Source: a virus
DNA length: 35,235 nt
IMG/VR virus record: IMGVR_UViG_3300025897_000033
Coordinates: 1 to 35,235 of that record
Reading direction: 5' to 3' (one strand)
In this document: piece by piece, positions 5,954 through 31,891 of the stretch
Layout: each line of letters opens with the position of its first letter
Position numbering within the stretch: position 1 is the stretch's first letter
Program-made: the position numbers and the translations under genes
Notes under the pieces: model-generated
What the model saw: the letters and a program-made list of their open reading frames with translations, nothing else
Databases searched by the model: none
Told to the model about the DNA's origin: nothing

Positions 5954-6026
5954 TTCTAAGTTTGGATTACTTCGAATGTTGCTCATAAGGAAAAGGAGTC
6001 TCACAAGTTGAGGCTCTTTTTTTTTT
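5954..6026 (+). ncRNA. Candidate short non-coding RNA
   Basis: About 70 bases between a TACATTTG box and an intrinsic terminator, with no convincing gene (the only ATG opens an 11-codon frame). Either a small RNA, or simply the leftover end of the early transcript with a chance promoter-like word. Confidence 0.3.
5996..6026 (+). terminator. Intrinsic terminator ending early transcription
   Basis: GAGTCTC (5996-6002) pairs with GAGGCTC (6010-6016), 7 bp with one T-G, loop of 7, then ten T (6017-6026). The 3' side of loop and stem also supplies the TTG of the next promoter. Confidence 0.85.
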
Positions 6027-6036
6027 ACTACATTTG
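6008..6036 (+). promoter_or_regulatory. Promoter fused to terminator, leaderless start
   Basis: TTG at 6008-6010 and a perfect TACATTTG at 6029-6036, 18 bases apart. The ATG of the sigma-like gene is at 6041, four bases after the -7 box, so transcription should begin at or next to the start codon. The same 15-base pattern occurs at 15237 and 26733. Confidence 0.65.
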
Positions 6037-6040
6037 CCTT

Positions 6041-6535
6041 ATGTCAGTTATCGAAACGATATACCGAGACCCGAAGTTCTACGGAGCGTGTAAGAAAATC
6101 GCTGGTAGACACGCTGATGATTTGTTTCAGCACGTTAATCTCAAAATTCTGGAAAAGGAAATGAATGGGACGTTTCACTACAATAAGTTACTGCAATACT
6201 ATTATTCTATTGCAAAGAGGGAGTACACATCCAAGACACATTCTTTTAGAAAAATACATTTTGGTAGAGTGGAAACAACTCCTTTAAATATCGATGTAGA
6301 AAATTTTATTGCAACTACATCAGAAAATTTTTATACCTTAGCCGATGAATTTGCGAGAACATCATCTGCCAACAAGAGTGAATGGTTTGTAAAACAAGTG
6401 TATTTAGAATGCACTTTACCAAACTTTAAGAGCATAGCAGATTTGAGCAATAGAACAAAAATAACAAAGCCGACATTGTATGGAGCACTTCACAGATTTC
6501 GAACTATTTATTACGATTATCTTGATACCGTTTAA
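6041..6535 (+). CDS. Putative sigma-factor-like transcription regulator
   Basis: 164 residues from ATG 6041. The open frame extends 11 codons upstream, but those lie in the terminator T-run and promoter, so 6041 is chosen. The N-terminal part (CKKIAGRHADDLFQHVNLKI, about residues 17-36) resembles sigma-70 region 2, where ECF factors have a DxxDLxQEV-type helix. The C-terminal part (about 132-163, FKSIADLSNRTKITKPTLYG) has helix-turn-helix spacing like region 4. It stands immediately before the long structural/modification operon behind its own promoter, which fits a late-gene activator or a phage sigma factor redirecting host RNA polymerase. Sequence is divergent, so the family call is tentative. 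Confidence 0.55.
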   Translation: MSVIETIYRDPKFYGACKKIAGRHADDLFQHVNLKILEKEMNGTFHYNKLLQYYYSIAKREYTSKTHSFRKIHFGRVETTPLNIDVENFIATTSENFYTLADEFARTSSANKSEWFVKQVYLECTLPNFKSIADLSNRTKITKPTLYGALHRFRTIYYDYLDTV

Positions 6536-6755
6536 TGCGTATGCTTTAAGCACCCTATCATTCGTAGTCTTTAATTTACCGACAGTATTCAAGTTCAAAC
6601 CATTCAACTGTTTCACTTGTTCGGTAACGTGGATAGGAGTCGTTCTAACGGCTCTAATACATACGGGTGTGTTACCAATACAAATACTAACAATAATGTC
6701 AACAGTGCTACTAGGATTCATCGTAGGATACATTGTGGACTCAAAATTTTATTAA
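6480..6755 (+). CDS. Small inner-membrane protein
   Basis: 91 residues with three hydrophobic stretches: about 8-32 (FELFITIILIPFNAYALSTL), 48-62, and 66-87 (ILTIMSTVLLGFIVGYIV). Between the first two lies KPFNCFTCSVTWIG, a KPFxCxxCxxxW motif seen in small membrane proteins of Bacteroidota phages. It starts 56 bases inside the sigma-like gene in another frame; no later ATG would leave a plausible protein. Function unknown. It could affect superinfection or lysis timing, but that is inference. Confidence 0.65.
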   Translation: MEHFTDFELFITIILIPFNAYALSTLSFVVFNLPTVFKFKPFNCFTCSVTWIGVVLTALIHTGVLPIQILTIMSTVLLGFIVGYIVDSKFY

Positions 6756-6756
6756 C

Positions 6757-7152
6757 ATGATAAACTTAAAACAATTTAAACAAGTATTACCAGATTGCGA
6801 AAACCCAGAAATGCTACATGAAGTATTTCGTATTTACGAAAAGCAAAAAACATTAAGACTGTTACACCCTCAAAAGGTTATATTGGAAAAGGCTCATAAG
6901 TATCTTGAGTTAGGTTCAATAAACAAATCGTGTGGTTCTTGTATAGCACATGCAGTTAAAAAAATGTCAAGAATTTTTGCTGAGAGATTTCCTAAAAAGA
7001 AAGTTAAACAAATAGATCAACAGTTAAAGAAATCGGTAGAGGACTTTCCAACTAATTACATGGCTCTCAAATCATTTGCAGAAAAAAGGTTGAACAAGAA
7101 ATATCCTAAGGGAACAAAATCGATTACAATATTAAAAGATTTGAAAGCATGA
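6757..7152 (+). CDS. Hypothetical Lys-rich protein
   Basis: 131 residues from ATG 6757, just after the preceding stop; an ATG at 6733 would add eight residues and overlap. Helical and basic, with a CGSC pair at about residues 58-61 and Lys-rich helices (KKKVKQIDQQLKK). Not recognised. It overlaps the first ParB-like gene by 4 bases, so it heads or joins the modification cassette and may be its first member. Its basic charge would suit a DNA-binding accessory. Confidence 0.6.
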   Translation: MINLKQFKQVLPDCENPEMLHEVFRIYEKQKTLRLLHPQKVILEKAHKYLELGSINKSCGSCIAHAVKKMSRIFAERFPKKKVKQIDQQLKKSVEDFPTNYMALKSFAEKRLNKKYPKGTKSITILKDLKA

Positions 7153-7685
7153 ATATAGAAAAAGTAAAAATATCAACGGTTAAGAATAACCCAGACAACC
7201 CAAGGGTAATTAACGATGCGAAATTCAAGAAGTTGGTTAACTCTATTAGGGAGTTTCCAGCGATGCTTGAGATACGTCCTATCGTAGTGGATAAGGACAT
7301 GACAGTACTCGGAGGTAATCAGAGATTAAAGGCGTGTACGGAAGCTGGATTAAAAGATGTTTTCATTATTAAAGCTGGAGGATTAACTAAAGAGCAACAA
7401 GACGAATTTATCTTAAAGGACAATACTAGCTTTGGAGAATGGGACTGGGAGAAATTATCTGTCTGGGACGAAAAGGTTTTACAAGATTGGGGGGTAATAG
7501 AAGATTTTTCTGGAGAAGAATACACTGCGATAATTGACCCGAATACTGACTATAAGGAATATTCAGAAGAGGACATGGCAAAAGCGAGAGAAGGAATGAG
7601 TGACTTCACGAATGTTACGTCAACTATCACAGTTACTTGCCCTCATTGTGCAGAGGATTTTGAAATTAAAAACCAGTCTAAATAA
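7149..7685 (+). CDS. ParB/sulfiredoxin-fold protein with C-terminal zinc knuckle
   Basis: 178 residues. Residues 1-90 form a ParB N-terminal domain: NPDNPRVIND, then RPIVVDKDMTVLGGNQRLKA, where GGNQR takes the place of the DGxHR motif of the family. The ParB/Srx fold includes nucleotide-binding and hydrolysing proteins and DNA-targeting subunits. The C-terminal tail has CPHCAEDFEI, a single zinc-knuckle half. It is the first of three ParB-like proteins in this cassette, coupled by ATGA at its start and TAATG at its end. In phages such stand-alone ParB domains usually sit beside DNA-modifying enzymes. Confidence 0.8.
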   Translation: MNIEKVKISTVKNNPDNPRVINDAKFKKLVNSIREFPAMLEIRPIVVDKDMTVLGGNQRLKACTEAGLKDVFIIKAGGLTKEQQDEFILKDNTSFGEWDWEKLSVWDEKVLQDWGVIEDFSGEEYTAIIDPNTDYKEYSEEDMAKAREGMSDFTNVTSTITVTCPHCAEDFEIKNQSK

Positions 7686-8260
7686 TGCTTGTAGATTTTT
7701 ACAAAAAAAAGAACATAAAGAAAATGGAGGGATACTCCCAAGAGGTTGCTGGAGAAGTTGATTTCTTAAAGAAGATAGTTAAATCAAGAGGGGTAGTTAA
7801 TGTAATGGAAATTGGCTTTAACGCTGGGCATTCAGCAGAGATATTCTTATCTTCGAATACCAAATGTAAGCTATGGAGTTTTGACATCGGTAGGTGGAGT
7901 TATGTTAATTTAGGTAAGGAGTTTATAGATGAGAATTTTCCTAATAGGCATCGTTTGATATTGGGGAACAGTTTAATTACTATTCCGAAATTTCCAACTC
8001 AGAAGTTTGATTTGATTTTTATAGACGGGGGTCACGCTTACAACGTGAGCAAATCTGATATAGAAAACTGCAAGAGACTTTCTCATAAGGAAACTATTAT
8101 TGTAATGGACGACACAATGAATAAGCCAGAGTGGGAGAAGTCTTGGAACAAAGGAGTAAACAAGGCCTGGAGAGAGTCAATCGATGAAGGTTTAATAGTG
8201 CAAAATGGATTTGAAGATTACGGAAAAGGAAGAGGTCTCAGTTGGGGTCGATACAAATAA
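7685..8260 (+). CDS. Class I SAM-dependent methyltransferase
   Basis: 191 residues. Motif I is VMEIGFNAGHSAE (about residues 40-52); the post-III acidic region LIFIDGGHAYNVSKSDIENC (about 111-130) is typical of the Methyltransf_24 group, whose members methylate sugars and small molecules on oxygen rather than DNA bases. No DPPY-type or PC motif of base methylases is present. The substrate is therefore probably a sugar or a modified nucleotide, consistent with glycosyltransferase-like neighbours. It is similar in layout to the methyltransferase at 10687-11220. Start is the TAATG overlap. Confidence 0.8.
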   Translation: MLVDFYKKKNIKKMEGYSQEVAGEVDFLKKIVKSRGVVNVMEIGFNAGHSAEIFLSSNTKCKLWSFDIGRWSYVNLGKEFIDENFPNRHRLILGNSLITIPKFPTQKFDLIFIDGGHAYNVSKSDIENCKRLSHKETIIVMDDTMNKPEWEKSWNKGVNKAWRESIDEGLIVQNGFEDYGKGRGLSWGRYK

Positions 8261-8262
8261 AA

Positions 8263-8550
8263 ATGAATAACATGACAAAAGAAGAGTTTGAAGAGTTTAT
8301 GACAAAAAGGGAGTTTAGATTTGCTAAAACAATGAAGGATATTCCACACGCTTACACGCATATTTTTAAAGAAAAAGACCCGTTGGTAAGAAGAAAATTT
8401 AAGGAGTCCGCAGTGTTTATTAGAGAGAACGGATATGAAGAAAGATTTTACAATAGAGTCTATACGTATTATGCCTTTAATGGATATAAGTACTGGCAAA
8501 TGGACGAAGAGCCTATGGACACAGTATTGATTAATCGAGCAGAACTATGA
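8263..8550 (+). CDS. Conserved phage protein, function unknown
   Basis: 95 residues from ATG 8263; an ATG at 8242 lies inside the methyltransferase gene and is less likely. The pattern REFRFAKTMKDIPHAYTH, then FIRENGYEERFYNR, then GYKYWQMDEEP and a terminal TVLINRAEL recalls a small protein that recurs in phages, often near methyltransferases, with conserved IPHxYTH, IRENG and KYWxM signatures. No activity is known to me. Histidines and aromatic residues conserved in those signatures suggest an enzyme or binding pocket. It overlaps the next gene by 4 bases. Confidence 0.7.
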   Translation: MNNMTKEEFEEFMTKREFRFAKTMKDIPHAYTHIFKEKDPLVRRKFKESAVFIRENGYEERFYNRVYTYYAFNGYKYWQMDEEPMDTVLINRAEL

Positions 8551-9119
8551 AAGTAATAATCCAAACATGTTCTGGAAGAGAACACTTTGTCAAATACTTA
8601 TTGAAAAGAATTCCTAACGCCATAGTTAATTTTGATGACTTCCCAGACGGAGGTAAGTTTGAATCGACTGCTTTCTTCAATTTTCAAAGAGGGATGAAGT
8701 TGGCTGGGAATGAGTCTCTCCTTTATTTAGAAGATGATATTATTTTAACCGATTCCTTTTTAAACAAAATAGAAAAAGCGAAGTTTGAGAATCCTAATAT
8801 GGTTATTCAGTTTTTTTCTATGCGAAAGAAAGATATTGAAATAGGAACTAGAGTAGAGAACGGGAGCAACTACATAATGATGCAGTGCACCTATTTCCCT
8901 AAAGGAGTGGCAAAAGGAATATACGAACATTCTTTAACGTACTGGGACGAAAACCACACAACAGCTCCTAACGACCCATGTGTAGCATCGTATCTTCAAA
9001 AGAACAAAATGAAGTATGTTATTTACGTTCCCAATTTAGTAGACCACCGAAGAGAAAAATCAGTAATTAATCCCAGAAGAAGTTCAAACAGAATCTCTAA
9101 AACATTTAAGCATGTATAA
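8547..9119 (+). CDS. Glycosyltransferase-like protein A
   Basis: 190 residues. LLYLEDDIIL has E62-D63-D64, the metal-binding xDD motif expected of a GT-A fold nucleotide-sugar transferase. It is followed by MMQCTYFPKG and by a C-terminal PNLVDHRREKSVINP segment with a histidine. The same three signatures in the same order occur in the proteins at 9112 and 11220, so the three are divergent paralogues. It overlaps the next gene by 8 bases. Acceptor unknown: DNA base, host or virion glycan are all possible. Confidence 0.65.
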   Translation: MKVIIQTCSGREHFVKYLLKRIPNAIVNFDDFPDGGKFESTAFFNFQRGMKLAGNESLLYLEDDIILTDSFLNKIEKAKFENPNMVIQFFSMRKKDIEIGTRVENGSNYIMMQCTYFPKGVAKGIYEHSLTYWDENHTTAPNDPCVASYLQKNKMKYVIYVPNLVDHRREKSVINPRRSSNRISKTFKHV

Positions 9120-9864
9120 GAATTTTTCAAAAGTTAGGATAGTTAATTGTATCGAGAGAGAGAAAGAGGGAATTGTGCAACAGAGACTATTGCAGAGGCA
9201 ATCTAAAAACGTTGATGTATCGATTGCTTTTGACCCCGAAATGTGGGGTGCATGGAAAACTTATAAAACTGCATTAGACGTATCCGATGAAAGCGACTGG
9301 CTTATAATGATGGAAGATGACGTATCGTTTCCAGTAGACATTCTAGCAAGAATGGATTTTATATTGGACTCAGCACCAAAGAATGCTTTTGTTTTCTTTT
9401 ACGTGCCGACAAACAATAAAATGAAGGATGCTTACGATAGTAACCACAAAATTGTTAAGACAAAATACAACTGGTGGATGCAATGTACGGCTATCCCCAA
9501 GAAGCATCGAGAAGGTCTTTTAAAAACAATAGATGAAATATGGCCTTTGGAGTCAGATAGTGGAGACGGCAGAGTAAAAAAATACATTCACGTAAACAAC
9601 GTAGAAGCGTATAATATTATGCCTAGTCTATATCAGCATTTAGGTACTTTCCGTTCTTCATTAGGACACTCTGGAATAATTAACGGGACTGCTAGGCAAT
9701 CGTTTTGTTACGAGCCTAATTCAAAGACATTTGAGATTGACTGGGAAAAGGAATTTGCAAACCCATTTTTTGATAAAAGCGCAAAAGGATTAATTGGATT
9801 CGAGGGATTAGAAAAAGGAATACCGTTAGAAAAATTCAACATGAAAAATGGCAAGAAAATATGA
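9112..9864 (+). CDS. Glycosyltransferase-like protein B
   Basis: 250 residues, the longest of the three paralogues. AWKTYKTALD then WLIMMEDDVSFP gives E68-D69-D70. WWMQCTAIPKKHREGL follows, then PSLYQHLGTFRSSLGH near residue 180. It begins with VRIVNCIERE, like the start of GT25-type transferases, where a similar EDD motif binds metal and nucleotide-sugar. The extra C-terminal 40 residues are unique to this copy. It ends in an ATGA overlap with the second ParB-like gene. Confidence 0.65.
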   Translation: MYKNFSKVRIVNCIEREKEGIVQQRLLQRQSKNVDVSIAFDPEMWGAWKTYKTALDVSDESDWLIMMEDDVSFPVDILARMDFILDSAPKNAFVFFYVPTNNKMKDAYDSNHKIVKTKYNWWMQCTAIPKKHREGLLKTIDEIWPLESDSGDGRVKKYIHVNNVEAYNIMPSLYQHLGTFRSSLGHSGIINGTARQSFCYEPNSKTFEIDWEKEFANPFFDKSAKGLIGFEGLEKGIPLEKFNMKNGKKI

Positions 9865-10307
9865 TTAAGCGAAAAGCGTTACTCGTTAAAGAGATTAGTA
9901 GTAAGAGACTTGTAATTGAGTACGTCAATCCATTAGACTTGATGCCTAACGAATACAATCCAAATTCTCATAGCACAAAGTCATTTGACTTATTACTAAG
10001 GAGTCTGGCTTTATTTGGTTTTACTCAGCCGATTGTAGTTGAAAAAAATACAATGACTATTGTGGACGGGGAACATAGGTGGAGGGCGTCTTGTGTGTTA
10101 GATTTAGAAGAAGTTCCAGTTTGCTTTATTGACTTAACTCCCGAGCAAATGAGAGTAGGCACTATCATCCATAACGAAGCGAGAGGTAAGCATTCAAAAG
10201 GCGCGATTGCTGACATTGATAATTACTTAGCTGAAAAGGGAATCAATCTGAAAGATGAACTTTTAACTAATCACGAAAACAAACATACAAAAACCGTTAG
10301 AGTATGA
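9861..10307 (+). CDS. ParB/sulfiredoxin-fold protein, second copy
   Basis: 148 residues. NPLDLMPNEYNPNSHS opens the domain, LLRSLALFGFTQPIVV follows, and VDGEHRWRA carries the DGxHR-type motif. NEARGKHSKGAIADI then matches the second ParB box (xNxARGxHxxxxL). It is closer to the IbrB-type protein at 12977 than to the one at 7149, since both share NEYNPNS/NDYNPNS, GxTQPIV and the ARGxH box. Probably a binding or nucleotide-processing partner of the adjacent enzymes. Coupled by ATGA at both ends. Confidence 0.8.
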   Translation: MIKRKALLVKEISSKRLVIEYVNPLDLMPNEYNPNSHSTKSFDLLLRSLALFGFTQPIVVEKNTMTIVDGEHRWRASCVLDLEEVPVCFIDLTPEQMRVGTIIHNEARGKHSKGAIADIDNYLAEKGINLKDELLTNHENKHTKTVRV

Positions 10308-10690
10308 TTATCTCAAGAGTCTTTCACAAAGATATCCCCGAATACTTTATTACTCTTGGCAGTAATGACGGAATGGATTTTCCTAAAGATAGATTCTACT
10401 TTGGAGCGTGGAAAAATAAACAGTTGATAGGAATAGTTGGGTGCAAAAGAATTAATGATTTTACGTATAAGTTAACAAGCGACTTTGTTGTGAAAAATTA
10501 CCGAGGAAACGGGGTTTACAGAAAGTTAAACGACCACCGAACTGGCTACCTACTATCCATAGGAGTCACTCTAATGAAGATTACTTGCACTCTCGACTCC
10601 ACACCCCTTCATAAAGGAAACGGAGCAGTAGAGACAAGGAAGTTTAAAAAGTGTACGTCATTTGAATATAGATATAAAAAGAGATTATGA
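10304..10690 (+). CDS. GNAT-family N-acetyltransferase-like protein
   Basis: 128 residues. FYFGAWKNKQLIGIVGCKRI is the central strand pair of the GNAT fold, and DFVVKNYRGNGVYRKLNDH is its acetyl-CoA-binding motif (RGNGVYRKL for R/QxxGxG/A). The Mu Mom protein, which modifies adenine, is a GNAT-fold enzyme, and GNAT genes recur in phage base hypermodification clusters, so a role in base or sugar acylation is plausible. The alternative is acetylation of a host protein. Coupled by ATGA to the genes on both sides. Confidence 0.7.
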   Translation: MIISRVFHKDIPEYFITLGSNDGMDFPKDRFYFGAWKNKQLIGIVGCKRINDFTYKLTSDFVVKNYRGNGVYRKLNDHRTGYLLSIGVTLMKITCTLDSTPLHKGNGAVETRKFKKCTSFEYRYKKRL

Positions 10691-11220
10691 AAAGAGAAGA
10701 AATAATACACACGTTCGGAGCGAAGAAAATCGCTGAGGTAGGAGTTTTGAGGGGTAGGTTTGCCAGTCACTTATTAAGTACGAATCCAGAAGAATTACAT
10801 TTAATAGATCCTTGGAGGGTTTTCGGAAAAGCAGTTTATCCAGACCACTCTCAAAAAACACAAGAGGACTGGGACAAAACACATGACTTTGTACAGAATA
10901 AATTCTCAAAAGATTACCGAGTAAATGTGCATAGAGGTACTTCGGAAGAGATTGCATCTAAGTTTCCAGACGGATATTTTGATTTAGTATACATAGATGC
11001 TAACCACACCTATGAGTTCTGTAAACTCGACATCGAGTTATGGCTTCCTAAAGTTCGTAAAGGAGGGATAATAGGAGGACACGATGCCGTGGAAGCACTG
11101 GGAGTTTTAAGAGCATGGACAGAAGCGTTCGGAAAAGATAACGTAAGGTTAACGACTGAGTATAACGAAAACACAACCCATAGAAAATATCCTAAGAGTT
11201 GGTTTTATAAGAAAAAATAA
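10687..11220 (+). CDS. Class I SAM-dependent methyltransferase, second copy
   Basis: 177 residues. KIAEVGVLRGRFASHLL is motif I (about residues 14-30); YFDLVYIDANHTYEFCKLDI (about 97-116) and the following LPKVRKGGIIGGHD match the Methyltransf_24 pattern. Like the copy at 7685 it lacks DNA-base methylase catalytic motifs, pointing to sugar or small-molecule O-methylation. Its start overlaps the GNAT gene by 4 bases and its stop shares one base with the next start (TAATG). Confidence 0.8.
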   Translation: MKREEIIHTFGAKKIAEVGVLRGRFASHLLSTNPEELHLIDPWRVFGKAVYPDHSQKTQEDWDKTHDFVQNKFSKDYRVNVHRGTSEEIASKFPDGYFDLVYIDANHTYEFCKLDIELWLPKVRKGGIIGGHDAVEALGVLRAWTEAFGKDNVRLTTEYNENTTHRKYPKSWFYKKK

Positions 11221-11861
11221 TGATAGTAACTATTCAAGCAGTACCTAGTCGAATGGATTACGTTACTTCATATTTGAAACCTATGTTTAAGTCGAGTAAT
11301 TTATTTGTTAATGTAGATTACGATTACACTGGATGCTTAAACAGTTGGAATGTAATGCTGGAGAAGTACACTTGTTTAAACGAGTACCGAGTCCATTTAC
11401 AAGACGATGCTATTTTATGCCATGATTTAGAGAGGTATCTTCCAGAGTTAATTAAAGAAATGGAATTTAACAAAATGGATTTCGTTTCTCTATTCGGGGT
11501 TCGGAAACCAGCTTATAATAAAGCGTTTGTAAAGGGGGAGAAGTACACTGAGATTAAAAATTTTTATGGATTACAAGCATGTGTTATGTCCCCACGCGCT
11601 CAGAGATTAATGCTAATGGACAAAGGAAAAAAACCCAAGAGTAATAAAGACGACATGGACGAAATGGACGACATCTTTGTTAGGTGGAGTTTAAGGAATA
11701 ATAAGATAACTCCTATGTTACACCTTCCAGTACTGGCTTGTCATAATTTAGAAATGGAATCTACAATAGAGCATTCCTTTACGTCCACGAAAAAAATGGT
11801 AAGTAATCTATTTGACATGAATTATGTAAGAAAAAAATATGAGGTTAATTCAGAAGCATAA
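11220..11861 (+). CDS. Glycosyltransferase-like protein C
   Basis: 213 residues. VHLQDDAIL places Q61-D62-D63 where the other two paralogues have EDD, so the first acidic residue is replaced. YGLQACVMSPRAQRLML corresponds to their MQCTxxPK segment, and LPVLACHNLEMESTIEHSF to their C-terminal P-x-L-x2-H block. The D-to-Q change leaves the metal-binding DD pair intact, so it may still be active. It overlaps the PAPS-reductase-like gene by 23 bases. Confidence 0.6.
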   Translation: MIVTIQAVPSRMDYVTSYLKPMFKSSNLFVNVDYDYTGCLNSWNVMLEKYTCLNEYRVHLQDDAILCHDLERYLPELIKEMEFNKMDFVSLFGVRKPAYNKAFVKGEKYTEIKNFYGLQACVMSPRAQRLMLMDKGKKPKSNKDDMDEMDDIFVRWSLRNNKITPMLHLPVLACHNLEMESTIEHSFTSTKKMVSNLFDMNYVRKKYEVNSEA

Positions 11862-12990
11862 TGTATTCGAGTCATCGTTAGATAGAATTAGGTATTTGTT
11901 CGATGAATTCCCTAATGTTATCGTTGGATTCTCTGGCGGTAAAGATTCTACTATTTGCTTACAATTATGTTTAAAGGTTGCAGATGAAAAGGGGAGGTTG
12001 CCACAGAAGGTTTTGTTTCTCGACCAAGAGGTTGAATGGCAAACCAATATTGACTACATTAGAACGGTAATGAATGACCCCCGAGTAGACCCAATGTGGA
12101 TGCAAGTGCCTTTAATGATGACTAACGAAACGTCTCATACAGAACACTATTTAGATACTTGGGCAGAGGGCAAGGATAATGAATGGATGCGAACAAAAGA
12201 GCCTAACTCCTACAAAGAGGACAAGTACAATTGTTATAAGTTTTCTGATATGTTCGAAAAGATTATAGGTGTCGAATTTCCAGATACACCAACTTGCTAC
12301 ATAGCGGGAATGAGAGCAGAAGAATCCCCTCCCAGAGCCGTTGCGGTTATGCATGGAGCGACCTATAAGCATATTACATACGGTAAGATACTCGACAAAA
12401 AGAAATTGCACTACACGTTTTATCCTATTTACGACTGGAGTTACATAGATGTGTGGAAAGCAATTGAAGATAACAACTGGCCTTATTGTGGGATATACGA
12501 TAGGATGTATCAACTCGGAATAGACATTCGTAATATGAGAATCAGTAACCTAAACCACGCAACTGCGTTAAACTCTCTCATGATGCTTCAAGAGATTGAA
12601 CCAGAAACGTGGGTAAAGGTATGCGAAAGGCTCCAAGGAGTAAACACAATAAAGCATTTATCCAAAGCATCTAATCAAGTTCCAAAAGAATGCCCTACGA
12701 TGTTTACTGGTGGGTGGAAGGAATATCGAGATTACTTACTAGAGAATCTCATAACAAATAAAGAACACCGAGAGATGTTTAGAGCGAGAATAGAGAGACA
12801 AGATAAATTATTCGATGTAATGTATCACAAGGAAAAATTGTATAAGGTTCAAGTACGCTCAATTATGATAGCTGATAAGGAAATGATACTGATGCACAAT
12901 TTCGAAAGAGACCCAGCAGTTTATGGATATATCAAATGGAAGACAAAAGGAATAGCGCCAACGCAAAAAAACAAGTATGTACATGGATAA
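11839..12990 (+). CDS. ibrA-like: PAPS-reductase-like ATP pyrophosphatase (IbrA/DUF3440 type)
   Basis: 383 residues. The PP-loop SGGKDS is at residues 32-37 after VIVGF, as in PAPS reductases, ATP sulfurylases and DndC. IAGMRAEESPPRA matches the R-x-E/D-ES-x2-R block of the family, and YPIYDWSYIDVWKAI the conserved FPIxDWxxxDVW block. The length and C-terminal extension fit the IbrA/YbdN group (DUF3440) rather than assimilatory CysH, and there is no C-terminal CGxH motif of CysH. The enzyme probably activates a substrate by adenylation. Its partner, an IbrB-type ParB protein, follows with a 14-base overlap, reproducing the bacterial ibrA-ibrB pair. Confidence 0.85.
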   Translation: MRLIQKHNVFESSLDRIRYLFDEFPNVIVGFSGGKDSTICLQLCLKVADEKGRLPQKVLFLDQEVEWQTNIDYIRTVMNDPRVDPMWMQVPLMMTNETSHTEHYLDTWAEGKDNEWMRTKEPNSYKEDKYNCYKFSDMFEKIIGVEFPDTPTCYIAGMRAEESPPRAVAVMHGATYKHITYGKILDKKKLHYTFYPIYDWSYIDVWKAIEDNNWPYCGIYDRMYQLGIDIRNMRISNLNHATALNSLMMLQEIEPETWVKVCERLQGVNTIKHLSKASNQVPKECPTMFTGGWKEYRDYLLENLITNKEHREMFRARIERQDKLFDVMYHKEKLYKVQVRSIMIADKEMILMHNFERDPAVYGYIKWKTKGIAPTQKNKYVHG

Positions 12991-13642
12991 GATTAGAACG
13001 GAAATAAACAAGGAACTCTCAATGGCAAAAGACCCCCTCGAGTTAATAGATAAAATTAAGGTGTACCTCAATAGTATATCTCCTATGAAAGAACAACCCG
13101 TAAATCTGGTTAGGTGGATTCCCATAGAAGATGTAACTCCGAACGACTACAACCCGAATAGCGTTGCTTCTAAGGAAATGGGTTTATTATACACCTCTAT
13201 TAAGCATGACGGGTACACCCAACCAATAGTAACGATATACGACAAGAAGAAAAAGAAGTATATTATCGTGGACGGATTCCATAGGTACTTTACATGTAAG
13301 AATAATCCCGATATATTAAAACTCAATAGAGGACGTTTGCCGATAGTTGTAATCCAAAAGGATATGAATGACCGCATGGCTTCAACAGTGCGCCACAATC
13401 GAGCCAGAGGTACTCACAGTGTAACGGGGATGTCAAGCATGGTATATCAAATGTTAGAAAACGGTTGGGCAGACCATGAAATTTGCAACGAATTAGGAAT
13501 GGAAGCAGAAGAGGTTTTGAGATTGAAACACATTACTGGGTTCAGCAAATTATTTAAGGATAAAGAGTATGGATTAGCGTACAAAAGTCCAGAACAAGTT
13601 AAACTGGAAAAAGAGCATGGAGTTTTGGGTATAGCAAAATAA
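12977..13642 (+). CDS. ibrB-like: IbrB-type ParB/sulfiredoxin-fold protein
   Basis: 221 residues. RWIPIEDVTPNDYNPNSVAS, YTSIKHDGYTQPIV, VDGFHRYFTC (DGFHR at 99-103) and DRMASTVRHNRARGTHSV follow the IbrB/YbdM sequence closely. The C-terminal part (ICNELGMEAEEVLRLKHITG, about 169-188) is a helix-turn-helix-like segment in the same family. In E. coli the ibrA/ibrB pair affects expression of eib genes, and the biochemical activity is not established to my knowledge. Last gene of the modification cassette. An ATG at 12983 would shorten it by two residues. Confidence 0.85.
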   Translation: MYMDKIRTEINKELSMAKDPLELIDKIKVYLNSISPMKEQPVNLVRWIPIEDVTPNDYNPNSVASKEMGLLYTSIKHDGYTQPIVTIYDKKKKKYIIVDGFHRYFTCKNNPDILKLNRGRLPIVVIQKDMNDRMASTVRHNRARGTHSVTGMSSMVYQMLENGWADHEICNELGMEAEEVLRLKHITGFSKLFKDKEYGLAYKSPEQVKLEKEHGVLGIAK

Positions 13643-13668
13643 GTTAACAGAGGACAAAACAGAGAGAA

Positions 13669-14094
13669 ATGGCTAACGAAGAGAATTTGATACCGTTTAA
13701 AAAAGGAGTGTCGGGAAACCCGAAAGGGAGACCTATTGGCACAGAGAGAATCCTAAAAGAATTGTTCTTGAATGAGTTTAATTTCAAATTGAATAAACAC
13801 CAAGCACAAGACATAATAAAAAACATCTTGTCATGCACTCGAAAAGAATTAACAGACATGGCTAACAATGACGAATTGCCTTTCTGGATTTCCATAATAG
13901 CAAACAAGGCTCAGAAGGATTTTAAGAAGGGTTCAATGGAAGTCGTGAATATTTTGTTTAACAGAGTATACGGCACACCCACCGAGGAAGTACACCAGAC
14001 ATTTACAGAAGTTCCAATTTTTAAATCAATAGACATAAGTGTTTCAAAAGACAACGGCTCAAGGGAAGATATCGAGACTGCGGAAGAGGTATAG
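13669..14094 (+). CDS. Probable terminase small subunit (DUF5681-like)
   Basis: 141 residues. LIPFKKGVSGNPKGRPIGTE (about 7-26) is the FKxGxSGNPxGRPxG motif of DUF5681 proteins, which commonly sit directly before terminase large subunits. The centre is helical and basic, and the tail is acidic. Its gene overlaps the large-subunit gene by 56 bases. By position it should recognise the packaging site and regulate the large subunit. Confidence 0.7.
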   Translation: MANEENLIPFKKGVSGNPKGRPIGTERILKELFLNEFNFKLNKHQAQDIIKNILSCTRKELTDMANNDELPFWISIIANKAQKDFKKGSMEVVNILFNRVYGTPTEEVHQTFTEVPIFKSIDISVSKDNGSREDIETAEEV

Positions 14095-15235
14095 GGTTGT
14101 ACAAGGAGGGACGTCATCTTCTAAGACCTATACCATAATCCCGTTATTGATTGACTACGCGATAAAGAATCCACGCAAGGAAATTTCCATGGTGGCTGAA
14201 TCGCATCCTCATTTGCGTAGAGGGGTGGTAAAAGATTTTATCAAAATAATGACTGACATAGGAATATATCAAGACAGTCAATTCAACAGAGGTTCTTACA
14301 AATACGTTTTTAAGAATGGAGCGTACATCGAGTTTTTTTCTGCCGACAAGGAATCCAAACTGAGAGGTGCAAGAAGGGATGTGCTTTTTGTTAATGAAGC
14401 GAATAACATAAAGTGGGAATCGTTTTACCAACTTGCTATTCGTACGTCTCAATTTATCTATATTGATTACAACCCCGTTGCAGAATTCTGGGCGCACCAC
14501 GAATTAATAGGGCAACCGAATACAGACCATATTGTATTAACCTACAAGGACAATGAAGCACTCGACCCGAATATCATAAAGGAACTAGAACATGCAGTAG
14601 AGAGAGCCAAGACATCTGACTACTGGAAGAACTGGTGCAACGTTTATGTTTACGGAAAAGTTGGACAACTACAAGGGACGGTTTACTCTGATTACAAAAT
14701 GATTGACAACGTTCCCGAGGATGCTAAGTATTATGGCATAGGACTCGATTTCGGTTATTCTAACGACCCTTCGGCTGGTATCGGTATGTGGGAGTGGAAC
14801 GGGCAAATAGTGTTCGATGAGGTTCTCTATCAAAAAGAGTTGACGAATAGGCAATTAGCAAAAATGATAGGCGAGTACATGGAGAAACACGAACTTTTCA
14901 GAAGACACGAAAATGTCGTTGCAGATTCGTCTGAGCCAAAATCAATTGCCGATATAAAATCTTACGGGGTTGATATTGAAGGATGCGAGAAAGGTGCTGA
15001 TAGTGTGAATTACGGGATAGGATTAATTCATGAAGGTGGGACGTTCTATGTAACCAAGAGGTCTGTTAATCTCATTAAGGAATTAAGGAACTACATTTGG
15101 AAAACAGATAAAACGGGAGCAACTACCAATAAGCCAATAGACTTATGGAATCATGGATGCGATGCTATGAGGTACGTTTATAACCAGAAGTACTCTAACA
15201 AATATTCGGGTAAGTATTCCGTATCAACTATTTAA
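14039..15235 (+). CDS. terL: Terminase large subunit
   Basis: 398 residues, usual length for the family. ATPase: Walker A QGGTSSSKT at 22-30, Walker B RRDVLFVNEAN at 112-122 with catalytic E120. Nuclease: YGIGLDFGYSNDPSAG (about 232-247) with the first metal-binding Asp, VVADSSEPKSI (about 293-303) with D296, and a late acidic site near DLWNHGCDAMRYV. It resembles PBSX-type terminases. The start is a GTG inside the small-subunit gene; no ATG lies between it and Walker A, so the exact start is uncertain, but it must be upstream of about 14090. It packages DNA into the prohead. Confidence 0.92.
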   Translation: MFQKTTAQGKISRLRKRYRVVQGGTSSSKTYTIIPLLIDYAIKNPRKEISMVAESHPHLRRGVVKDFIKIMTDIGIYQDSQFNRGSYKYVFKNGAYIEFFSADKESKLRGARRDVLFVNEANNIKWESFYQLAIRTSQFIYIDYNPVAEFWAHHELIGQPNTDHIVLTYKDNEALDPNIIKELEHAVERAKTSDYWKNWCNVYVYGKVGQLQGTVYSDYKMIDNVPEDAKYYGIGLDFGYSNDPSAGIGMWEWNGQIVFDEVLYQKELTNRQLAKMIGEYMEKHELFRRHENVVADSSEPKSIADIKSYGVDIEGCEKGADSVNYGIGLIHEGGTFYVTKRSVNLIKELRNYIWKTDKTGATTNKPIDLWNHGCDAMRYVYNQKYSNKYSGKYSVSTI

Positions 15236-25101: not shown

Positions 25102-26082
25102 ATGAATCTAGTTAAAAGAATAAAAATGGGTGCAGAGCGATTTAATTTCGACTTTGACACCGCTGGATTGTCTGCTTATGCCGACATGAACTCTGACGAA
25201 TTATTCAGAAGAGCAGTAACGACTGGTAGAACTTTATCATTAATCCGTATTCAAGACGGAGTAAAGGGAACTGAGAAGATCAAATTACTAAACGATAGTG
25301 TAACTTATCAGTTAGCTGATGACTGTGCTATGACGGCTGACGGCAACTCAACTATTTTTACTGATAGAGATTTGACGACATTGAAAATCGGATTTTACAA
25401 GCAATTTTGTCAAGATGATTTGGCTGGTTTCTGGACGCGGTTACAGTTAAAAGCTGGAGCAATGGCAGAAAACGAGACTTTAATTTTCGAACAAGAGTTA
25501 ATGGATTACATCCTAGAGATTCATGCTTTCGAATTAGAGAAAATGGTTTGGCAAGGAGATTCTTCATTGGTGGCTGGAAACTTACAGTTCATTGACGGAT
25601 TAGCAACTAGAATGTCGGCAGATGCTTCTGTTATTAATGGAAACCCATTAGGTGCTGGAGCAATGACAAGTTCAAATGCTTACACTGCTTTCTTATCGGT
25701 TGCTCGAAGCATCCCAAGTACTATTTACGACCAAGCAGACACGAAGATTTTTTGTGGAAGAGAGTATTTCAACTTTTTGAAAGATGATTTATTTGCTCAG
25801 AACCTATATCATGTACCAGTAGCAAGTCAAGAAGATAATACAATGGTATTACCAGCGACTGGGTTTACAGTTGAAATGGTGCAAGGTTTATCTGGATATG
25901 ACGCAATTTTTGCTGGACGTTCTCAAGATTTAATTTGGGGTACTGATTTAGCAACGGATTCTGGTTCAGTTGAATTATGGTACGACAAGGACAGTGATAC
26001 TATCAAGATTAGAAGTAAATTCTACGGAGGTACACAATATCCGTTTTCTGACCAGTTGGTTAAGTGGATACCTGTACCGTAA
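25102..26082 (+). CDS. Major capsid protein
   Basis: 326 residues, no predicted cleavage-type N-terminal delta domain of any length, as expected when a separate scaffold is present. Position after the protease-scaffold gene, length, and an ordinary soluble mixed alpha/beta composition support an HK97-fold shell protein. Regions such as ENETLIFEQELMDYILEIHA (spine-helix-like) and GGTQYPFSDQLVKWIP at the end (typical terminal strand) fit. It is followed by a hairpin at 26103-26125 that may tune expression downstream. Named by context more than by motif. Confidence 0.75.
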   Translation: MNLVKRIKMGAERFNFDFDTAGLSAYADMNSDELFRRAVTTGRTLSLIRIQDGVKGTEKIKLLNDSVTYQLADDCAMTADGNSTIFTDRDLTTLKIGFYKQFCQDDLAGFWTRLQLKAGAMAENETLIFEQELMDYILEIHAFELEKMVWQGDSSLVAGNLQFIDGLATRMSADASVINGNPLGAGAMTSSNAYTAFLSVARSIPSTIYDQADTKIFCGREYFNFLKDDLFAQNLYHVPVASQEDNTMVLPATGFTVEMVQGLSGYDAIFAGRSQDLIWGTDLATDSGSVELWYDKDSDTIKIRSKFYGGTQYPFSDQLVKWIPVP

Positions 26083-30394: not shown

Positions 30395-31891
30395 ATGTAC
30401 GGCTATGGATACAAATATACAAGCGGTCTAGTATTAGGTGCTGGAGGTGGTGCTCCTTTCGTTAATGCATATTCGTTAGATTTTGACGGAGTGGACGATT
30501 ATGTAGGCACTAATTCTAAAATAATTGGTTCAGATATTACTTTGTCGGGTTGGGTTAATTTCAATGGTGGAAGTTATACATCTTCTGTGGCACAATTTCC
30601 AATGTCCATAACCCCTTCAAATACTAGTGCACCCAATGAAACGATAGGAAGATTTTATAAAGTAGGTGTTAATATGCGTATCAGTATTCAATGCTTTGAC
30701 CAAAATGGAGCAAATTATTCTACCTATACTGTTCCAGGTTTAAATTTTGAAGGTGCGGGTTGGAATCATGTATGCTGGACATATAATGTAACTACCAGAC
30801 ATATTTATGTCTATATAAATGGAGTGGCTCAAAATTGGCTTAATTTTTCGGGGTCAGTAACTACACCTTATTTAACTGCAATTAGTGGTAGACTCTACGA
30901 AAGCGACTTAACTATTGGCAGACAGAAACCTACTACGCCTACGGGAACTTATTTAGGATTAGTAGATGAGGTAAGTACTTATGGTAGAATACTAACCCAA
31001 GAAGAAATAACAAGCATTTCAACAACACCTACAGACCTTTCAGACCTTAACCCTATTGCTTGGTACAGAATGGGAGATAACGGTTCTTTCAAGTCTCCAC
31101 AATGGTTAATACCTAACAATGAGAACAAGGACAAATTTTCTAATTATAGTTTTGAACTAGACGGGATAGGTGATTACGTTGATTTAGGAGATAGCGATGA
31201 CTTTAGCTTTGGCGATGGTGCAACAGATTCTCCATTTACCATTTCTGCTTGGATAAAAATGGATAGTACTTCGGGTTTTAGAATATTCAATAAATCTTTA
31301 GGAGCAACATCAGAGTATCAATTTGGTACTGGTGGTGGTGGCACTTTACAATTATACTTATTTGATAACACAAGTAATTTTATCTATAGAGCAAGAGTCT
31401 ACACTACGGTATTAAGTACGGGACAATGGTATCACGTAGCTACTACATATAGTGGAGTAGGTGGAACAAATGCTCAAGACGGTATAAAAATATATGTAGA
31501 CGGTGTAAGGGTTGATGACTCATCTGTAAGCGGTGGAACTTATGTGGCTATGGGCAACAAAACAACTCCCCTTTACATAGGGAAATTAGATTCAAGCTAC
31601 GCTAATGGAAGCGTCGATGAGGTAAGTGTTTTTGATTCTGAACTTTCTGCAAGTGAAGTAATGGACATTTACAACGGTGGTACTTCAAGCGGAGCAATAG
31701 CACACTATAAAATGGGAGAAGAGGCTACATTTAGCGGAGGAGTTTGGACTGTTCCAGATGCAGTAGGGAGCAATGACGGGACATCTAATGCAATGACAAT
31801 AGAAGATAGAATAGGAGAAGCATCAAGTTCAGAAAACAACGCTTTGAGTTATAATATGGACTTAGTGGATAGAGTAACAGACACACCTTAA
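30395..31891 (+). CDS. LamG (concanavalin-like) adhesin, probable receptor binding
   Basis: 498 residues with two laminin-G-like domains: about 25-215 (YSLDFDGVDDYVG, then SGWVNFNGG, RHIYVYINGVAQNW, LVDEVSTYGRILTQEEI) and about 245-450 (YSFELDGIGDYVDLGDSDDF, SAWIKMDSTSG, IKIYVDGVRVDD, SVDEVSVFDSELSASEV). Both end in the VDEVSxxxxxLxxxEV motif of the family. The final 45 residues (PDAVGSNDGTSNAMTIEDRI) are a recurrent tail in phage LamG proteins. LamG domains bind glycans, so a tail or head fibre recognising host polysaccharide is likely. Third-base use looks different from the adjacent genes. Confidence 0.8.
   Translation: MYGYGYKYTSGLVLGAGGGAPFVNAYSLDFDGVDDYVGTNSKIIGSDITLSGWVNFNGGSYTSSVAQFPMSITPSNTSAPNETIGRFYKVGVNMRISIQCFDQNGANYSTYTVPGLNFEGAGWNHVCWTYNVTTRHIYVYINGVAQNWLNFSGSVTTPYLTAISGRLYESDLTIGRQKPTTPTGTYLGLVDEVSTYGRILTQEEITSISTTPTDLSDLNPIAWYRMGDNGSFKSPQWLIPNNENKDKFSNYSFELDGIGDYVDLGDSDDFSFGDGATDSPFTISAWIKMDSTSGFRIFNKSLGATSEYQFGTGGGGTLQLYLFDNTSNFIYRARVYTTVLSTGQWYHVATTYSGVGGTNAQDGIKIYVDGVRVDDSSVSGGTYVAMGNKTTPLYIGKLDSSYANGSVDEVSVFDSELSASEVMDIYNGGTSSGAIAHYKMGEEATFSGGVWTVPDAVGSNDGTSNAMTIEDRIGEASSSENNALSYNMDLVDRVTDTP

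Follow-up and report, generated by a model that had tools for sequence, protein, structure and literature searches.

What is built by eleven genes packed immediately upstream of the terminase genes of a virus, when these genes encode ParB-fold proteins, methyltransferases, glycosyltransferases (GTs), a GNAT acyltransferase and a PAPS-reductase-like protein? The question is raised by IMG/VR virus record IMGVR_UViG_3300025897_000033, a contig of 35,235 bases, possibly incomplete, the whole of which we refer to as the window. An original prediction, made from the sequence alone, assigned the cassette at 7149-13642 to one pathway that most likely decorates phage DNA as anti-restriction. Our comparative analysis favours, as a probable reading, a combinatorial island for DNA hypermodification, linked to the terminase and built around an adenylating IbrA/IbrB/ParB core.

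Organisation of the cassette

All eleven open reading frames (ORFs) of the proposed cassette are present on the plus strand in the ORF listing. Pfam and PHROG agree with the families first named, namely three ParB_N proteins (one of them IbrB-type), two Methyltransf_24 proteins, a GNAT and an IbrA-type protein with PAPS_reduct and DUF3440 domains. The three GT-like calls are weak by database profile (phrog_854) and are backed by converging seeded profiles and by the GT-A fold of G4. Overlaps had been noted at nearly every boundary and occur at nine of the ten junctions, which measure, from G1 to G11, -1, +2, -4, -8, -4, -4, -4, -1, -23 and -14 nt. The sole exception is the 2-nt gap between G2 and G3, if G3 starts at the ATG at 8263, which is a better start than the annotated TTG at 8242. 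The only terminator-like site detected between 6400 and 15300 lies on the minus strand. The genes and their terminase flank are as follows.

7149..7685, plus strand: G1, ParB_N domain with a C-terminal CPHC zinc-ribbon-like tail (Pfam ParB_N E 8e-7; phrog_620 2e-26)
7685..8260, plus strand: G2, Methyltransf_24, O-methyltransferase-like (Pfam E 2e-14)
8263..8550, plus strand: G3, uncharacterised "U3" domain (AlphaFold pLDDT 95)
8547..9119, plus strand: G4, GT-A-fold glycosyltransferase with an EDD motif (phrog_854 E 6e-8; AlphaFold pLDDT 94)
9112..9864, plus strand: G5, second GT of the G4 profile family, MEDD (phrog_854 E 2e-4)
9861..10307, plus strand: G6, small ParB (DGEHR), partner of G5 (Pfam ParB_N E 3e-10)
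10304..10690, plus strand: G7, GNAT N-acyltransferase (Pfam Acetyltransf_1 E 1e-5)
10687..11220, plus strand: G8, Methyltransf_24, COMT-like O-methyltransferase (Pfam E 6e-19; profile matches to 3ntv and 6g7d)
11220..11861, plus strand: G9, third GT of the G4 profile family, LQDD (weak phrog_854 match, E 0.01)
11839..12990, plus strand: G10, IbrA-type PP-loop ATPase, PAPS_reduct plus DUF3440 (phrog_2302 E 6e-81; Pfam 2e-15 and 3e-9)
12977..13642, plus strand: G11, IbrB-type ParB (DGFHR; phrog_2159 E 1e-70; 47% to Hendrix gp1)
13669..14094, plus strand: terminase-small-subunit-like ORF preceding the large subunit (phrog_15125, an unnamed family, E 1e-9)
14039..15235, plus strand: terminase large subunit (TerL), a frequent neighbour of the module (phrog_2 E 2e-34)

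Recurrence of the module

The same module was sought in other phage genomes and was found in Microbacterium phage Hendrix and in many IMG/VR loci. One end of the Hendrix record carries a GT (31% to G4), another GT, a methyltransferase, an N-acyltransferase and a PAPS-like gene (36% to G10), and the other end carries IbrB, two more ParBs, a further ORF and the terminase large subunit. The Hendrix methyltransferase ORF bears the U3 domain of G3 at its N-terminus. Scans of IMG/VR anchored on IbrA and IbrB, together with phage records, gave 121 further neighbourhoods (122 with the window), which share one gene order: first ParB and U3, then between one and three variable enzymes, then PAPS and IbrB, in some cases a ParB, and finally a small ORF and TerL. 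Within 3.5 kb of the PAPS gene lie 72 of 76 U3 copies, 51 of 53 GT copies and 29 of 31 GNAT copies, against a background in which about half of the DNA examined lies farther away than this. The carriers are diverse, with GC fractions of 0.29-0.69 and no BLAST match for 67% of TerL pairs. A Burkholderiales contig (L222, about 9301-13969) with the order GNAT, PAPS, ParB, TerL is probably a prophage that carries the module.

The linkage also holds when other genes serve as anchors. With U3 alone as the anchor, 71 of the 72 further viral locus records had a PAPS gene, and with the G4-type GT 67 of 73 scoreable loci did, compared with a base rate of 215 records with a PAPS homologue among 50,697 phage records. 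Since cassette members supplied the queries, what these scans sample is relatives of the subfamilies concerned, and some of the contigs appear in more than one scan. The original prediction had named homologues that are never co-localised as a result that would speak against it, and the recurrence in both scans decisively shows the opposite. A peptide scan of IMG/VR with G10 as a single protein returned no match, and alignment queries were needed.

The U3 domain

The U3 domain of G3 is a conserved domain of about 90 residues with near-invariant Pro-His (PH), Tyr-Trp (YW) and Asn-Arg (NR) pairs. Its family comprises 78 proteins in 72 of the 122 neighbourhoods, and elsewhere the domain is fused to a class-I methyltransferase, a SET domain, an S-adenosylmethionine (AdoMet) decarboxylase or a GNAT. 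No match in the PDB was better than Foldseek E 0.1 or VIA Z 3.4, which does not by itself establish a new fold. For scanning, a 31-sequence alignment was too diverse as a query and six closer sequences worked. Cellular U3 proteins, from Acidobacteria, Chloroflexi, Verrucomicrobia, Nanohalarchaeota and others (L219-L231), lie mostly outside the module. For several of them, inspection shows an adjacent or fused partner, namely an HNH nuclease (L220, L227), type I methylase (L228) or DUF262-like/GmrSD-like gene (L231), which is compatible with a DNA-related role of U3.

An IbrA-type protein lacking the reductase cysteine

The label "PAPS-reductase-like" given to G10 holds for its family and fails for its catalysis. 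Among 102 IbrA homologues, the PP-loop motif SGGKDS is present in 101, the reductase motif ECGxH in none and CxxC in one; the best cysteine column of the alignment reaches 55% and no cysteine is invariant. These counts do not fit an identity as CysH PAPS reductase, nor Dnd phosphorothioation with the cysteine dyad of DndC. Some relationship to DndC is detectable (PADLOC E 7e-10 over about 60 residues), and no match to DndA, DndD or DndE was found among the cassette proteins scanned. The few solved structures related in sequence are FAD synthase and CysD, a subunit of ATP sulfurylase, both of which adenylate an oxyanion. Taken together, the missing cysteine motif and these adenylating relatives suggest that IbrA would adenylate a group on, or destined for, a base, instead of carrying out the DndC-like sulfur transfer that had been brought to mind by the first reading, which the absence of conserved cysteines partly contradicts.

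ParB proteins

In the window and in most relatives, the PAPS_reduct plus DUF3440 protein adjoins a ParB-fold IbrB, so that the two form an IbrA/IbrB pair. G1, with its CPHC motif at residue 164, has a 53% identical relative in IMG/VR. In four other distinct contigs the G5 homologue has a G6 homologue immediately behind it, which defines a GT-ParB gene pair, and the window ParBs match the domain found at the N-terminus of DNA methyltransferases (phrog_498; PADLOC MTase_II). DNA-modification enzymes have ParB-superfamily partners in DndB and DpdB (PMC12839542), and ParB-domain (ParBc) genes accompany CmoX/CmoY DNA hypermodification (PMC12783734). Serratia phage eta has a ParB and DNA reported as unmodified; since a text search of that source shows no PAPS or acetyltransferase genes (PMC3918226), this phage is not a test of the module.

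Decorating enzymes and their exchange

Profiles seeded from G4, G5 and G9 each converge on the same family size, 54 proteins in 46 loci, with a conserved E/Q-D-D metal motif. The AlphaFold model of G4 is a GT-A glycosyltransferase fold carrying the EDD motif, with VIA Z 14.4 over 178 aligned residues at 3.1 Å to GlcNAc-transferase I (GnT-I, 1foa), and Foldseek E values of 4.5e-6 to mimivirus R655 and 1.8e-5 to the archaeal-virus protein A197. G2 and G8 are paralogues (28% identity, E 1e-7) that resemble COMT-like O-methyltransferases, and with three GTs present sugar O-methylation would be their simplest assignment. The GNAT family of G7 is present in 34 neighbourhoods; in Pfam and PHROG scans G7 matched general GNAT models only and no Mom-family match was returned. 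No tblastn match of G5 or G7 was obtained in the 50,697 phage records.

In relatives, other enzymes occupy the slots beside the PAPS gene. One slot-mate is a DNA adenine methyltransferase-like protein (DPPW ... DPxCGxG) whose best PDB match is DpnA (E 4e-9) and which matches Pfam N6_N4_Mtase in 15 of 24 cases. In other phages an AdoMet decarboxylase stands beside PAPS (Pfam E 3e-21), and its presence suggests an aminopropyl-type decoration in these phages; alone or fused to U3, it lies inside the cassette in L007, L017, L041, L044, L053, L096 and others. SET and class-I methyltransferase domains fused to U3, GNATs and GTs fill such slots as well. A further slot-mate resembles cupin/2-oxoglutarate oxygenases, a name that rests on an invariant HxD...H; the family was not confirmed by Pfam (Cupin_2 E 0.034, Asp_Arg_Hydrox 0.14) or by any PDB match. 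The gene after the G4-type GT is oxygenase-like in 28 loci, a DNA methyltransferase in 14 and a GNAT in 14, and the first of these counts makes hydroxylate-then-glycosylate a natural reading. Profiles for the AdoMet decarboxylase and for a second GT group drifted into U3 and PAPS, and the original clusters were used instead. Two decorators accompany PAPS in 120 of 262 locus records (not all distinct contigs) and none in 30, while the window holds the maximum of six, the next highest being four. Several decorating transferases and DNA-directed enzymes thus occur in one recurring gene cluster, as expected of a hypermodification island.

A model for the cassette and the evidence against it

We propose that the core, consisting of IbrA as a target-adenylating PP-loop ATPase together with IbrB, the second ParB and U3, would work on DNA by making or activating a handle on a base, which exchangeable decorating enzymes would then extend. 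In the window, three GT-A glycosyltransferases, two COMT-like O-methyltransferases and one GNAT probably build an O-methylated, acylated sugar decoration, which would probably contain several sugars, and the G5/G6 pair would deliver one sugar to DNA. The idea of one pathway was borne out to the extent that the genes form one recurring module and that DNA-directed enzymes occupy the same slots in relatives; from these slots we infer DNA as the acceptor. The product would lower sensitivity to some host nucleases.

Several observations weigh against this model. No handle-forming enzyme (TET, hydroxymethylase, oxygenase, TGT or C5 transferase) was seen among the window proteins scanned, in a record that is possibly incomplete; IbrA and U3 may fill this role. 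The O-methyltransferase family of G2 and G8 is broad and lies mostly outside such islands: a scan anchored on Methyltransf_24 found PAPS at only 6 of 78 loci, all six among the closest matches, and the family is therefore generic. Restriction palindromes are also strongly avoided in the window (1-35235), with observed versus expected counts of 0/40 for CCGG, 9/92 for GATC, 3/27 for GGCC and 28/92 for AGCT, while TCGA and GCGC are not avoided. Other decorated loci have likewise lost individual palindromes completely, and decorated and bare loci show no clear difference in palindrome content (p 0.07, towards more avoidance, and 0.43). Such avoidance in the window and in other carriers argues that the cassette product gives no blanket restriction protection, which runs counter to part of the original prediction. 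Possible reasons are that the modification is incomplete, depends on sequence, was gained recently or is directed at other nucleases.

Alternative explanations

Among the alternatives, the one that survives best, although we consider it unlikely, is that the decorators act on a virion or host-surface glycan, in capsid or tail glycosylation or O-antigen change, and that their adjacency to IbrA/IbrB reflects a cargo slot. GT-A enzymes, sugar O-methyltransferases and GNATs are typical of surface glycans, the closest solved GT folds are those of protein and polysaccharide GTs, and the Methyltransf_24 family occurs mostly in other contexts. However, the G4-type GT is nearly dedicated to the IbrA module (67/73) and shares its slot with a DNA adenine methyltransferase, and the cassette lies at the terminase rather than at tail or lysis genes and contains GT-ParB gene pairs.

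Less probable still is a regulatory role, in which IbrA/IbrB and the ParBs would control late phage genes and would not modify bases; homologues do carry the annotation "co-activator of prophage gene expression", which also appears in a table legend (PMC4490671). Regulation leaves both the constant linkage to GT, GNAT, AdoMet decarboxylase and DNA methyltransferase genes and the intact PP-loop active site unexplained. Slightly lower again we place an RNA rather than a DNA target, with a lysidine-like or acp/aminopropyl hypermodified base in tRNA. In its favour, tRNA modification commonly involves PP-loop enzymes, GNATs and AdoMet-derived donors; against it stand the DpnA-like DNA methyltransferase in a slot of the cassette, the ParB domains, the linkage to the terminase and the absence of any tRNA gene from the window. 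A role of the PAPS-like gene in sulfur assimilation, as an auxiliary metabolic cysH of the kind that the family name PAPS_reduct implies, is highly improbable given the absence of any ECGxH (0/102) or conserved cysteine and the constant partners ParB, GT, GNAT and DNA methyltransferase.

Relation to known systems

The closest known arrangement is that of phage Hendrix (genes 154-158 and 1-5), which shares with the window two GTs, a U3-bearing methyltransferase, a GNAT, a PAPS-like gene, IbrB, two more ParBs and the terminase. It differs in having one methyltransferase of another class, only two GTs, an actinobacterial host and all ParBs downstream, and no study of its cassette was found in the literature searched. 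Flavobacterium, Streptococcus and Mycobacterium phages carry the same IbrA family, with an adjacent IbrB-type ParB seen in Flavobacterium phages; unlike the window, the Flavobacterium pairs examined are without decorators, and phages 1H and FCV-1 carry such a bare core. The nearest relative of the window TerL is that of Flavobacterium phage Fpv5 (48.5%).

DndBCDE phosphorothioation is similar in its DndC-related PP-loop enzyme and ParB-superfamily partners, whereas the cassette is without the cysteine dyad and without DndA/D/E matches. Phage Mu Mom, which is GNAT-type, and the T4 DNA glucosyltransferases share with the cassette the idea of acyl- or glycosyl-type DNA decoration, although G7 returned no Mom-family match and the T4 enzymes are GT-B whereas the cassette GT is GT-A. 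The CmoA/CmoX/CmoY 5-carboxymethylcytosine system of Synechococcus phage S-B43 also combines a phage DNA handle with ATP-dependent activation and has ParB-domain genes in many contigs (PMC12783734). It relies on a DNA C5 transferase (SPPC) and an AMP-forming ligase, families not among the cassette proteins scanned, while the ATP-using enzyme of the cassette is a PP-loop ATPase.

Hypermodification islands in phages are already known; for the present combination, for its modular plan and for U3, the literature searched yielded no description. Iyer et al. 2013 are said to have predicted lysidine-like and AdoMet-derivative phage bases, a prediction with which the present reading may overlap.

Flanking genes in the window

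An uncharacterised ORF at 6733-7152 overlaps G1 by 4 nt; none of the neighbourhoods retrieved contains a homologue, and the ORF may thus extend the operon in this virus only. A short ORF ahead of the cassette (6008-6535) reads as a helix-turn-helix or sigma-factor-like regulator without a family match. Further downstream, a virion structural protein (25102-26082; phrog_11320, phrog_1623) gave no tblastn match in the 50,697 phage records, and a 498-residue protein (30395-31891) has a strong Laminin_G_3 lectin domain (E 2e-37) and is likely an adhesin or receptor-binding part.

Implications

More tentatively, and with somewhat less than even confidence, we suggest that the module represents an unrecognised combinatorial class, in which the adenylating IbrA/IbrB/ParB core with U3 installs an activated handle and phages shuffle GTs, acyltransferases, AdoMet-derived donors, oxygenases and methyltransferases to produce genome-specific DNA decorations. 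The window would then be its most elaborate member and would attach to DNA an oligosaccharide that is both O-methylated and acylated. In part of the virome and phage literature, PAPS reductases of phages are read as sulfur-metabolism genes (PMC5704599, PMC10434257), and the absence of the ECGxH cysteine argues against this for the IbrA family. If our reading is correct, a PAPS-reductase-like gene read as cysH would, at least in this family, be the core of a widespread modular DNA-modification system. The clustering of phage genes for IbrA, stand-alone ParB, GNAT and small GTs ahead of the terminase would also find an orderly explanation, and with U3 as a defined domain and phages available as isolates, the chemistry would be open to immediate measurement.

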